This document shows, piece after piece, positions 5,597 through 12,735 of a DNA stretch of 37,139 nt. Position 1 is the stretch's first letter, and each line of letters begins with the position of its first letter. The notes under the pieces are model-generated. The model was not told the DNA's origin. It did no database searches and saw only the letters and a list, made by a program, of their open reading frames with translations. The translations under genes were made by a program, and so were the position numbers. The stretch covers positions 1-37,139 of the forward strand of contig NZ_JAIMAV010000021.1 in the NCBI RefSeq assembly GCF_023511815.1, in the 5' to 3' direction. The DNA comes from Alicyclobacillus sp. (GTDB taxonomy: Bacteria; Bacillota; Bacilli; Alicyclobacillales; Alicyclobacillaceae).

Positions 5597-5610
5597 CCCG
5601 GGGACCGGGC

Positions 5611-5706
5611 GGCCGAGTATCTTGGGCTGGTCAGGCGCAACCGGTCGCGAACCGGCCGGCCGCATACCTTGGGCTGAGTAGGCGAATCCGGTCGCGAACC
5701 GGCCGG
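5611..5706. repeat. Two-copy tandem repeat, 47-bp period, downstream of tyrS
   Basis: Unit 1 starts at 5611 and unit 2 at 5658; each is 49 bp with a 2-bp overlap, and they match at about 41 of 49 bases. Both contain CTTGGGCTG and end with the identical segment CCGGTCGCGAACCGGCCGG. That segment includes CCGGT-CGCGA-ACCGG, which can form a small hairpin. No coding capacity is apparent. Its role is unknown. Confidence 0.8.
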
Positions 5707-5747
5707 CGTGTCCCCTGATGGGCGCGCACCGGTTTGCGGCTCGTCTC

Positions 5748-8453: not shown

Positions 8454-8517
8454 TCCAACACGCAGTGGCCGTCGAAGGCCCGGATCGCGAGGGGATGCCG
8501 GGAGAAGGCGGGCATGG

Positions 8518-8546
8518 GGCCGCACCGAACGAGGTGCGGCCTTTTT
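8518..8546 (+). terminator. Intrinsic terminator after the chemoreceptor gene
   Basis: A perfect 9-bp stem (GGCCGCACC at 8518-8526, GGTGCGGCC at 8533-8541) with a six-base loop is followed by TTTTT (8542-8546). Confidence 0.92.
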
Positions 8547-8641
8547 GCCCATTTTTGACCGGGAGCGGGCACACGGTGGGCGCGCGCATATACTGGCAGC
8601 GTCGAACGTCAGGATGGGCAGGCGCCATGAGGAGGTTGAAG

Positions 8642-9814
8642 ATGAAGAAATATGTCGTGAAAAAGGGTGACACGATGTGGAGCATCAGCAAGGCGACCGG
8701 CGTACGGTTGAACCTGCTGATGGCGGCGAACCCCCAGATCACCGATCCCAACCGCCTGCAACCCGGTCAGGTGATCCTCATCCCGGAGCTGGAAAAACCC
8801 GCGGCCAAGCCGGCGGCCGACGCACTGCCGGCGGCGCCCCCGGCCAAAGGACTGCCGGGGACCGCGGTGCCGCCGTATTTCGGATTTGTCTGGCCGCACG
8901 TGGTGCAGTCGGGGGAGACGTGGGAGCGGATTGCGCAGCGATACGGGGTCCCGGTGGCGGAGCTGAAGCGCATGAATCCAAATCTCGGGCCGCAGCTGGC
9001 GGAGGGCGACATCGTGTATGTACCCGGCCTGAACCAGGCGGGGACAGCGGGTGCGCCGGCGAGCGCCGCCGCGCCGGCGGGGCCGGGCGGGCCGGGCGGG
9101 CAGCCGGTTCCGGGCGGGCAGCCGGGGCCGGCGACGGTGCCAGGCGCCGGGATGCCGGGCCCCGCGGCGGACCAGGGGGTCCCCGGTGGGATGGCGCCGC
9201 AGCCGATGCCACCGGGGATGCCGCAGGGTTTTCCCTCCGCCCCGCCCGCGGGCGTGCCGTACACCGAGTACCCGGGTGCGTTCGCGCCGGGCGCCGGTGT
9301 GCCGTACGGAGCGCCGGCCGGAGTGCCGTACGCGATGCAGCCGGGTCCACACCCGGCCACCGGTGGCCTGCCGTACGCGGTGCCGTCCGGCATCCCGTAT
9401 CCCATGCACCCCGGAATGCCGTACGCCGCTGCGCCGGATGCGGTCGGATTGCCCGGTCCGCACACGCACTATCCGTACCGGAGCATGGCATGGGGCGGGC
9501 CGATGGCCTATCCGTGGCGACCCGGCCTTCGCCCGATTCATCCGATGCACGCGGCGGGTGCCGCCTGGCCGCCGCAGGCGGGATTCGGGTACTTGCCGAT
9601 GAGCCCGTGGCCGACGCCGCTGACCTGGTACACCGTGCTGGATGAGAGCTCCTCCTGGGAGTCGTGGAGTTCGAGCGTGCCTCATCCCCGCCGGGCGGAG
9701 GCGGCCGGGCCGACCGAGGCGGCCGATGAGGCCGAGGAAGACAGCGGCAGCGAGGCCTGGCGAGACCTGTACCGGGAGTCGAGTTTTGATGACCTCGCCG
9801 CGTCCGGCCCGTGA
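8642..9814 (+). CDS. Spore coat/cortex-type protein with two LysM domains (SafA-like)
   Basis: A 390-residue protein without a signal peptide. LysM 1 is at residues 4-48 (KKGDTMWSISKATGV) and LysM 2 at about 86-128 (QSGETWERIAQRYGV); these bind peptidoglycan. A Pro/Gly/Ala-rich middle holds six G-x-P-Y motifs (204, 219, 227, 242, 250, 258). The C-terminus is acidic and Ser/Trp-rich. The N-terminal LysM, Tyr/Pro-rich body, and location between NAD synthesis genes and yebC resemble B. subtilis SafA, which organises the inner spore coat. Start: ATG 8642 has GAGGAGG 6 bases upstream; the in-frame ATG 8627 overlaps that site. CATATACT at 8587-8594 resembles a sigma-E/sigma-K -10, but I see no convincing -35. 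The kinase gene overlaps its end by 26 bp. SafA identity is inferred from architecture and position. Confidence 0.82.
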   Translation: MKKYVVKKGDTMWSISKATGVRLNLLMAANPQITDPNRLQPGQVILIPELEKPAAKPAADALPAAPPAKGLPGTAVPPYFGFVWPHVVQSGETWERIAQRYGVPVAELKRMNPNLGPQLAEGDIVYVPGLNQAGTAGAPASAAAPAGPGGPGGQPVPGGQPGPATVPGAGMPGPAADQGVPGGMAPQPMPPGMPQGFPSAPPAGVPYTEYPGAFAPGAGVPYGAPAGVPYAMQPGPHPATGGLPYAVPSGIPYPMHPGMPYAAAPDAVGLPGPHTHYPYRSMAWGGPMAYPWRPGLRPIHPMHAAGAAWPPQAGFGYLPMSPWPTPLTWYTVLDESSSWESWSSSVPHPRRAEAAGPTEAADEAEEDSGSEAWRDLYRESSFDDLAASGP

Positions 9815-10802
9815 CCAACACGACGCGCGTTTCGCGCAGATGCTACGCCACGCCTACGGTCTGAGGGCGGCGGCCGTGATCCGGCTCAAGACCGTCACCG
9901 GGATCGTCGACGAGGACGGCCGGCGATGGGTCTGGAAACCGCTGCGGGACGGTTGCGCGGAGGAACGGTTGGCGGCGGTGGCTGAGGCGGCCGAATTGCT
10001 CACGGCCGCCGGTCTCCCGTTTGCGGGGCCCGTCCCCGGCCGCGGCGGGCGCTATCTCACCACGCCCGGGGATGGCCCGCCCGGTTGCCTGCAGCCCTGG
10101 TTGCCGGGCCGCCACGCCGATTACACGGTCCGCCAGGAACGGTTGGCGGCGGTGGCGACCCTGGCCGCGATGCATCGCATCGCGCACGGAACGCAACTTT
10201 CCGCCCGCGCCGCGCTGTACCGCGGCAATCTGTACGAAAAGCTGTGGCTCAAACGGCGGCTCCTGGATGCGCTCTGGCCGCGGGCGGCGTCGTCGGTGCC
10301 CGCCCTCCGCGAGCTCCGGGAGCCAGCGCTGCGGGCCGCGGACCTGGCGCTCCATTCGGTGCATCCGGGGGGCGCCGGCGAGGATGCCCCGTGGGCGCGG
10401 TTGACCTTCTGCCACCGCGACGTCGCGCCGCACAACCTGTTGTGGCAGGGGGCGGGCCCGCTCGCCGTGATCGATTTTGACCTGTGCGGGATGGACGATC
10501 CGCTGATTGACGTGATGCAGCTCTCCAACCACGCGCTCTTCCTTGGCGTGCCCGCGGCGGGGCATTTCACCGAACTCACGGAGGTGTATCTGCGCGGCTT
10601 TCCGCTGTCGAGGGCGGGGGAACGGGCGCTGTGGCGCGTCCTCGCCTTCCCGGATCTGTTGGCTCGGGCGGTGACGGAGTGGGTCCGAGCCGATGAGGGG
10701 CGGGATGTGGAACCGGCGCTCCGCCGCCTCGTTCACGCGGCGCGCCGGCAGGCGGAACATCTGGAGGCGTGGGCCAAGGCGACGCGCGGCCTGCCGGTGT
10801 GA
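9789..10802 (+). CDS. CotS/YsxE-family spore coat kinase-like protein
   Basis: A 337-residue protein of the aminoglycoside phosphotransferase (APH) fold. The catalytic loop is CHRDVAPHNLLW (H209, D211, N216) and the metal site is VIDFDLCG (D229, D231). K50 in RWVWKPL is the probable nucleotide-binding lysine. These residues suggest an active enzyme, not a dead homologue. It overlaps the end of the LysM gene by 26 bp, with GGGAG 10 bases before the ATG, so the two are probably translated together. In Bacillus, CotS, CotI, YutH and YsxE are coat-associated members of this fold, and ysxE lies beside the LysM gene spoVID. A role in coat assembly is therefore likely. The substrate is unknown. Confidence 0.85.
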   Translation: MTSPRPARDQHDARFAQMLRHAYGLRAAAVIRLKTVTGIVDEDGRRWVWKPLRDGCAEERLAAVAEAAELLTAAGLPFAGPVPGRGGRYLTTPGDGPPGCLQPWLPGRHADYTVRQERLAAVATLAAMHRIAHGTQLSARAALYRGNLYEKLWLKRRLLDALWPRAASSVPALRELREPALRAADLALHSVHPGGAGEDAPWARLTFCHRDVAPHNLLWQGAGPLAVIDFDLCGMDDPLIDVMQLSNHALFLGVPAAGHFTELTEVYLRGFPLSRAGERALWRVLAFPDLLARAVTEWVRADEGRDVEPALRRLVHAARRQAEHLEAWAKATRGLPV

Positions 10803-10810
10803 CGGCGGCC

Positions 10811-10935
10811 GCGCCGGCGCCGAGCTTGCGGGGGCGGCCGCTCGGGCGGTCGCGCCGGCACCGGGCTTGCGGGGGTGGCGTGCGAGGGCGGTTGCACCGG
10901 CGCCGGGCTTGCGGGGGCGGCGCGCTCGGGCGGTT
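10811..10935. repeat. GC-rich tandem repeat, three copies of 41-42 bp
   Basis: Copies run 10811-10851, 10852-10893 and 10894-10935, with a trace of a fourth (GCGCCCGCG). Each contains CCGG(G/A)CTTGCGGGGG or a one-base variant, then CTCGGGCGGT or a variant. The array fills most of the 209-bp gap before the amidase gene and stops just before its promoter. It lacks a long open frame that belongs to a neighbour. Confidence 0.9.
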
Positions 10936-10964
10936 GCGCCCGCGAAGGGCGATAGTATTATACT
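10934..10964 (+). promoter_or_regulatory. Probable promoter of the NAD synthetase gene pair
   Basis: TATACT (10959-10964) sits in an AT-rich patch (ATAGTATTATACTGAAAG) that stands out from the GC-rich repeat beside it. The best -35 is TTGCGC (10934-10939), 19 bp away, which is weak and far. The -10 is about 48 bp upstream of the GTG start. Confidence 0.55.
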
Positions 10965-11011
10965 GAAAGGCGGACCATGCGCCGCTTTGGCGCGACGAGG
11001 AGCGTGACAGC

Positions 11012-11887
11012 GTGACGCAGCGCATCCAGGTGGCCCTGGGGCAGGTTCGCCCCGTCCTCGGGGACGTCGGGCGAAATGTGGACAAGCACCTGCAGTACAT
11101 GGCGAAGGCCAGGGAGCAGGGGGCCGACGTGATTGTGTTCCCGGAGCTCGGCCTGACCGGTTATCAGGTGCAGGATCTGACGCTGGAGGTGGCCAGGCCG
11201 CTCTCCCATCCGGACATCCATCGTCTGGTGCGGGAGAGCCGCAGCCTGGACGTCGTGTTCAGCTTCGTCGAGGAGTCGGACGCGCACCTGTTTCACATCA
11301 GCAGCGTCTACGCCGCCGAGGGCGAGGTGCGGGCGGTGCACCGCAAGGTGTACCTGCCCACGTACGGGATGTTCGATGAAGGCCGCTATTTTGCCGCGGG
11401 CGGAGGATTTCAGGTGTTCACGAGCCGCCTGGGCGCCACCGGGATGCTCGTCTGCGAGGACGCCTGGCACGCCACCAGCCCCTACCTGTTGGCGATGGGC
11501 GGGGCGTCCGTCCTGATTCTGCCGGCGGCGAGCCCGGCGCGCAACGTGATGGAGCAGGGGGATTTCGGCTCGCAGGCCTTCTGGCGCCAACTGCTGCAGG
11601 TCTACGCCCAGCTGTTTGGCACCTACATCGTGTTCGTCAACCGGGTCGGATTGGAGGACGGCGTGAATTTCTTCGGCGGGTCGGGTGTCGTCTCGCCACA
11701 GGGCGAGTGGCTGGTGGAGGCGCCCGCCCTGGAGGAGGGACTGTATCTGGCCGAGGTGAAGCCCGACGCCGTTCGCCGGGCGCGCTACACGACGCCGCTG
11801 TTGCGGGACGAGCGCGCGGATCTGGTCTGGCGCCAGCTGGGGAATCTGCTTGACGGCCGGACGCCGAAGGGGGGCTTGGCGCGATGA
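11012..11887 (+). CDS. Nitrilase-fold amidase, probable glutaminase subunit of NAD synthetase
   Basis: A 291-residue carbon-nitrogen hydrolase. The Glu-Lys-Cys triad is visible as E45 ([13 protein letters not shown]), K112 ([15 protein letters not shown]) and C148 (LVCEDAWH). [10 protein letters not shown] and PTYGMFDE are typical of the glutaminase domain of glutamine-dependent NAD synthetases, which release ammonia from glutamine. The GTG start has GAGGAG 9 bases upstream. The stop overlaps the nadE start (ATGA), so the subunits would be made together. In most glutamine-dependent enzymes this domain is fused to NadE; here it is a separate protein. The glutaminase role follows from motif and context; another amide substrate is possible. 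Confidence 0.88.
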
Positions 11888-12735
11888 GGCCAGAGATTGA
11901 ACAGCGCCTTCGGCTGAACACCGATCTGGCCCGGCGGGTCCTCACCGCGTTCATCCGCGAGGAGGTCGAGAAAGCCGGATTTCAGCGCGTGATTTTTGGG
12001 CTGTCCGGCGGGATCGACTCCGCCTTGGTGGCCTATCTGGCGGTGGAGGCCCTCGGACGCGACCGCGTGCAGGCGGTGATGATGCCGTATCGGACGAGCA
12101 GCCCATCCAGCCTTGAGGACGCGAGGCGGGTAGTGGAGGATCTGGGGATGCCGGCCCTGACGGTGCCCATCACCCCGGCCGTCGACGCGTACTTCGAGCA
12201 GATGGACCGGCTGCTCGGCGGCGCGGCCCCTGTACTTCGGCGCGGCAACCGGATGGCGCGCGAGCGGATGGCCACGTTGTTCGACCTGTCGGCCCATTTC
12301 GGGGCGCTGGTGCTTGGCACCAGCAACAAGACGGAGCTGCTTTTGGGATACGGGACGCAGTTCGGGGATCTGGCGAGTGCGCTCAACCCCATCGGGGACC
12401 TGTACAAGTACCAGGTCCGGCAGATGGCCGCCGCCGTGGGGGTGCCCGACAGCATCCTGAGCAAACCGCCGAGCGCGGATCTGTGGGCGGATCAGACGGA
12501 CGAGTCGGAGCTCGGGTTCGGGTACGACGAGGCGGACGAGGTGCTGTATCAACTGGTGGATCAGCGATTGTCCGTGGCGGAGCTGGCGGCGCGCGGGTAC
12601 GAGGAACGGTTCATCCGGCACGTCGCGGAGCGTGTGCGGCGCAACCAGTACAAGCGCCGGACGCCCGTCATCGCCAAGCTCTCCGGGCGCACCATCGGTG
12701 TGGATTTCCGGTACCTTCGCGACTGGGGGCTGTGA
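11884..12735 (+). CDS. nadE: NAD(+) synthase, synthetase subunit
   Basis: An adenine nucleotide alpha-hydrolase fold enzyme that adenylates nicotinic acid adenine dinucleotide and amidates it to NAD. The ATP-binding loop SGGIDS is at 41-46. [18 protein letters not shown] and [18 protein letters not shown] are NadE signatures. At 283 residues it has the length of ammonia-dependent NadE and lacks a fused glutaminase domain. Its start overlaps the stop of the nitrilase-fold gene by 4 bp, which suggests that the partner supplies ammonia from glutamine. Confidence 0.96.

Follow-up and report, generated by a model that had tools for sequence, protein, structure and literature searches.

The window analysed here is a stretch of 37,139 nucleotides from Alicyclobacillus sp., for which a first-pass annotation had proposed an amidase gene overlapping a short NadE gene. 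Both open reading frames are present on the forward strand. The upstream gene (11012-11887, GTG start) encodes a nitrilase superfamily protein of 291 amino acids, the putative glutaminase (G) subunit of an NAD synthetase, and the downstream gene (11884-12735, ATG start) encodes a NadE of 283 amino acids with a C-terminal extension, the putative synthetase (S) subunit. The two share four bases in an ATGA stop/start overlap (11884-11887), and overlaps of 1 to 17 bp are found in most relatives. By eye, each gene has a probable ribosome-binding site about 9 bases 5' of its start, which is GAGGAG for G (10997-11002) and AAGGGGGG, residing within the G gene, for S (11867-11874). A stop codon and a new start separate G from S, and so the products are not one polypeptide of the fused (type F) kind.

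On one side of the pair lies a gene for an APH-fold kinase (9642-10802), and on the other side lie yebC, ruvC, ruvA and ruvB. Promoter and terminator scans gave no result. A GC-rich tandem array with a period of 42 (3.4 copies; 10804-10944) sits directly upstream of the pair, and another repeat, a 47-bp unit in about 2.2 copies (5604-5707), is found directly past an open reading frame resembling tyrosyl-tRNA synthetase. Ahead of the kinase gene is a reading frame (8465-9814) for a LysM-domain protein whose long middle part is rich in Pro and Gly, which is reminiscent of spore-coat proteins.

Several features suggest that G is a glutaminase that serves NAD synthesis. First, the protein matches the Pfam family CN_hydrolase (PF00795, E 2e-37) over residues 7-259, and its best NCBIfam model is that of the fused NAD+ synthase (NF010588), of which only the glutaminase part is covered; the score lies under the model's cut-off because half of the model is missing. 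Second, the residues of the Glu-Lys-Cys triad noted in the first-pass annotation (E45, K112 and C148) never vary, neither among 28 relatives at the level of family and order nor in a set of 39 sequences from several phyla. Third, G carries the residues that gate the ammonia tunnel in fused enzymes. Codons 118-123 (11363-11380, forward strand) encode YGMFDE, which by alignment is the counterpart of the YRE loop, Tyr127-Glu132, of the Mycobacterium tuberculosis enzyme. The reference residues in that enzyme, which cover its catalytic triad, YRE loop and constriction 1 (PMC6946656), are Glu52, Lys121, Cys176, Tyr58, Tyr127, Phe130, Glu132 and Pro204; the correspondence to G is our reading of the alignments, supported by motif identity. 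Y51, Y118, F121 and E123 of G are likewise invariant in both the 28 relatives and the 39-sequence set, and P175 is invariant in the relatives and at least 90% conserved across the 39 sequences. With the triad and the Tyr, Phe and Glu of the YRE loop all in place, G is predicted to be an NAD synthetase glutaminase (class IV, nitrilase-like).

Many nitrilases have other functions, and G might instead be an unrelated amidase, such as an N-carbamoylputrescine amidase (CPA) or a deaminated glutathione amidase, that happens to lie beside an ammonia-dependent NadE. The second-best matches to G do point in this direction, being TIGR03381 (aguB) in NCBIfam and a plant CPA among solved structures, and CPA (TIGR03381, 5h8i) shares with G both the nitrilase fold and the triad. 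Fold comparison is likewise unable to separate the nitrilase families. The AlphaFold model of G alone (mean pLDDT 92.2) matches 5kha (Z 34.4, rmsd 1.8, 244 aligned) and 1j31 (PH0642; Z 35.3, rmsd 1.8, 253 aligned), and many nitrilases tie at Z 32-36, so the comparison adds nothing to the assignment of G. Against CPA, however, stand the score, the motifs and the phylogeny. G reaches 111.9 bits with TIGR03381, for which the equivalog threshold is 410. It has CED at the catalytic cysteine and a Y-x-x-F-D-E loop, whereas CPA-like proteins have CWD and GPGYEE and lack a loop of the YRE type. In a tree built from 31 type C G subunits, 9 fused-enzyme G domains and a further 19 nitrilases, CPA-like proteins included, all 31 G subunits, that of the window among them, form one clade (97/97). 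This clade joins the G domains of fused enzymes (100/98), and the 19 other nitrilases fall outside. We therefore rejected CPA as the identity of G, and we consider any unrelated amidase to be very improbable.

The same tree bears on whether the pair is merely a fused NAD synthetase gene that was recently split by frameshift or fission. The order G then S is the domain order of the fused enzymes, and fused forms are common in Bacillota. Yet the clade containing the window G stands beside the fused G domains and not within them, two families and several phyla keep the split, and both genes come with a start and a probable ribosome-binding site of their own. The tree led us to reject recent fission, which is, if anything, even harder to credit than an unrelated amidase.

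The S protein matches NAD_synthase (PF02540, E 7.7e-79) over residues 19-261 and exceeds the curated cut-off of NF010587, the NCBIfam model for single-domain NAD+ synthase. Its predicted G-binding element is an extended C-terminal tail (codons 261-283; 12664-12732, forward strand). Single-domain enzymes that use glutamine can be told from those that use ammonia by an extended C-terminal loop of S, the part that makes contact with G when the two are fused (PMC3376133), and the window S possesses this loop. An AlphaFold model of S alone (mean pLDDT 88.2) has a confident core and resembles NAD synthetases at Z 30-33, the closest being 1xng (Z 32.9, rmsd 1.6, 244 aligned) and 2e18 (Z 32.6, rmsd 1.6, 242 aligned). 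Helices near its C-terminus span residues 214-226, 231-236 and 241-253 and may include a counterpart of alpha18, a helix of S that is a mark of type C enzymes. Confidence is low at residues 271-283 (pLDDT 43-51), as would be expected in a model of the lone protein for a tail that orders with a partner. A C-terminus of low confidence is common in ordinary proteins as well.

We searched 61 related genomes, from the window's family, its sister family and other families of the class, for G and NadE. G is found in 49 of these, all belonging to the two sister families, and in every one of the 49 the next match is a NadE that lies no more than about 200 bases away, shares the strand of G and is matched through the end of the tail. 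This adjacency is no chance occurrence. Eleven genomes have NadE without G, five of them from the window's family and six from other parts of the class; their NadE proteins are about 28-43% identical, are matched only to about residue 220-262, and all end without the tail. The one remaining genome is incomplete and has neither. Given that the genomes are related, the figures of 49 and 11 are not independent counts. The presence of the tail on S only where G is also encoded is a further argument against G being an unrelated amidase.

Both states occur even within two genera of the set, namely g3 (G019 versus G004 and G025) and g4 (G020 and G026 versus G005). We tentatively propose that, in the window's family, G with a tailed S is exchanged as a complete unit for the ammonia-type NadE and vice versa, although we place this somewhat below even odds. 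One genome with the pair (G026) also has a second NadE match of the ammonia type (C84, 1645-2406), which crosses a TAG codon on a contig of 4.9 kb and may represent a transitional state or a stray contig.

In the source genome, whose assembly is 99% complete, a search recovered a single full NAD synthase match, which is the S of the pair; the PF02540 matches that rank next are confined to short segments within other open reading frames. Since this is the only NadE in the genome, the pair must make its NAD. The only other G-like sequence there is one remote nitrilase of about 28% identity. The NadA and NadD families are both present, and a second, shorter NadA match (C5, 8545-9255) occurs in addition to the full one on contig C99.

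To place the pair more widely, we searched 84,980 species genomes and examined the best 80 loci. In 68 of these S follows G in the same orientation; they come from Alicyclobacillus, Thermoactinomycetaceae and many Chloroflexota, and also from metagenome-assembled genomes of Acidobacteriota, Desulfurobacteriaceae, Omnitrophota, Zixibacteria and Armatimonadota. A search of the genomes behind the remaining 12 loci turned up a full-length S elsewhere in eight, and all eight of these distant S proteins keep the tail, which argues that the tail follows the partner and not the gene neighborhood. The eight loci (L187-L194), in which G and a tailed S lie apart (type R), are mostly from Chloroflexota.

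The first-pass annotation had called for a survey of fused versus split enzymes in Bacillota, and this shows how uneven the distribution is. Among 199 genomes sampled evenly across the phylum, only two hold the pair, one of them the source of the window, and about 39 matches fall in open frames of at least 540 amino acids, long enough for fused enzymes; 15 of these were classed as fused, with both domains in one frame. The pair is thus standard in the window's family and its sister and rare across the phylum.

Five NadE loci from another family (f58; L222-L226, in G108, G182, G238, G147 and G213) were considered as a possible counterexample, being 44-54% identical to the window S and matched by the type C profile to about residue 278 in the absence of a type C G. 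No G lies in the roughly 4 kb that flank each of them to the left and right, and two of the five genomes also hold a fused enzyme. We rejected them in this role and count them as lacking the canonical tail because the tail sequence is altered, to ARI..GVGGDFRYWES.. versus AKLS.RTIG.DFRY.RDWG; as read individually, the tails have ..GGDFRYW or GDYRYW... These proteins may descend from type C enzymes whose G has been lost, or they may be paralogues that serve a different role.

Pairs of this kind have a name and a precedent. The implication that a split enzyme would be new does not hold, as S/G pairs were defined as 'type C' NAD synthetases by De Ingeniis et al. (2012; PMC3376133), who predicted two-subunit enzymes across genomes and verified them with the pair from Thermus thermophilus. 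There the subunits co-purify at about 1:1 in a tight complex, which uses glutamine or ammonia, whereas the synthetase alone uses only ammonia (PMC3376133). The T. thermophilus genes (TTC1538-TTC1539), like those of the window, form one operon in which S and G are encoded separately, and by their published description they encode a nitrilase-type G and an S with an extended C-terminal loop. They differ in belonging to another phylum, in having been tested biochemically where the window pair is known here from its genes, and in their order, which, as judged from the description of the His tag, is apparently S then G, in contrast to the overlapping G then S of the window. Because the arrangement was shown in T. 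thermophilus in 2012 and is standard in the window's family, the pair is a well-conserved but ordinary instance of type C.

Other known enzymes bracket this assignment. Fused type F enzymes (M. tuberculosis 3dla and Acinetobacter baumannii 5kha) share with the window pair the triad, the YRE loop, the S tail and the order G then S, but are single polypeptides, and the window G is only about 32% identical to 5kha and falls in a separate clade. Ammonia-dependent type N NadE (Helicobacter pylori 1xng, Bacillus subtilis) shares the synthetase fold with S but has neither a glutaminase partner nor a C-terminal tail. Sequence searches of solved structures returned enzymes of the fused type, NadE proteins that stand alone and nitrilases of other kinds, but a two-subunit NAD synthetase was not among them; a literature search combining Alicyclobacillus, NAD synthetase and glutaminase found no paper.

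Taken together, a single-domain S clustered with a G that is homologous to the G domain of fused enzymes suggests, with a probability we put at about 0.92, that the pair encodes a glutamine-dependent NAD synthetase of type C, made of two subunits that associate and pass ammonia from G to S. This agrees with the function first proposed for the pair and is well supported at the level of sequence by the phylogeny, the tunnel-gate residues, the interface tail and the genome-wide association. G would hydrolyze glutamine to glutamate and ammonia via its Cys-Glu-Lys triad, and S would activate nicotinic acid adenine dinucleotide with ATP and then amidate it to NAD+. The C-terminal tail of S would pack against G, and on its way from C148 to the active site of S ammonia would pass a gate made up of the YRE loop (Y118-E123) together with Y51 and P175. 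Through the ATGA overlap, translation of the two genes is probably coupled, which would balance subunit amounts. The precedents of T. thermophilus and the fused enzymes lead us to infer, for this organism, a physical complex that depends on glutamine, has a tunnel and retains some use of free ammonia.

How much glutamine matters to the cell is a question of degree that is compatible with this assignment. It is possible, though we think it less likely than not, that the complex forms but draws mainly on ammonia in vivo, with G supplementing S only under nitrogen limitation. The T. thermophilus complex favors ammonia about 50-fold, and its S alone is active with ammonia (PMC3376133). On the other side, G and its triad are strictly retained wherever a tailed S occurs in the family and order, which implies that the use of glutamine matters.

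To what is known of the type C enzyme, this analysis adds that G and the tail of S are co-inherited almost perfectly, along with the placement of G at the level of clades and the distribution of the pair. An arrangement for which we found one biochemically tested example in the literature is now extended to a large set of bacteria, and the co-inheritance supports the 2012 rule that tells glutamine-using from ammonia-using single-domain enzymes. Cultured species of Alicyclobacillus and Thermoactinomyces are candidates for studying how the subunits are coupled and how ammonia is channelled across a non-covalent interface. If the two kinds of NAD synthetase do take each other's place as complete units, the window's family would offer a natural experiment that shows under which conditions cells require glutamine instead of ammonia to make NAD.
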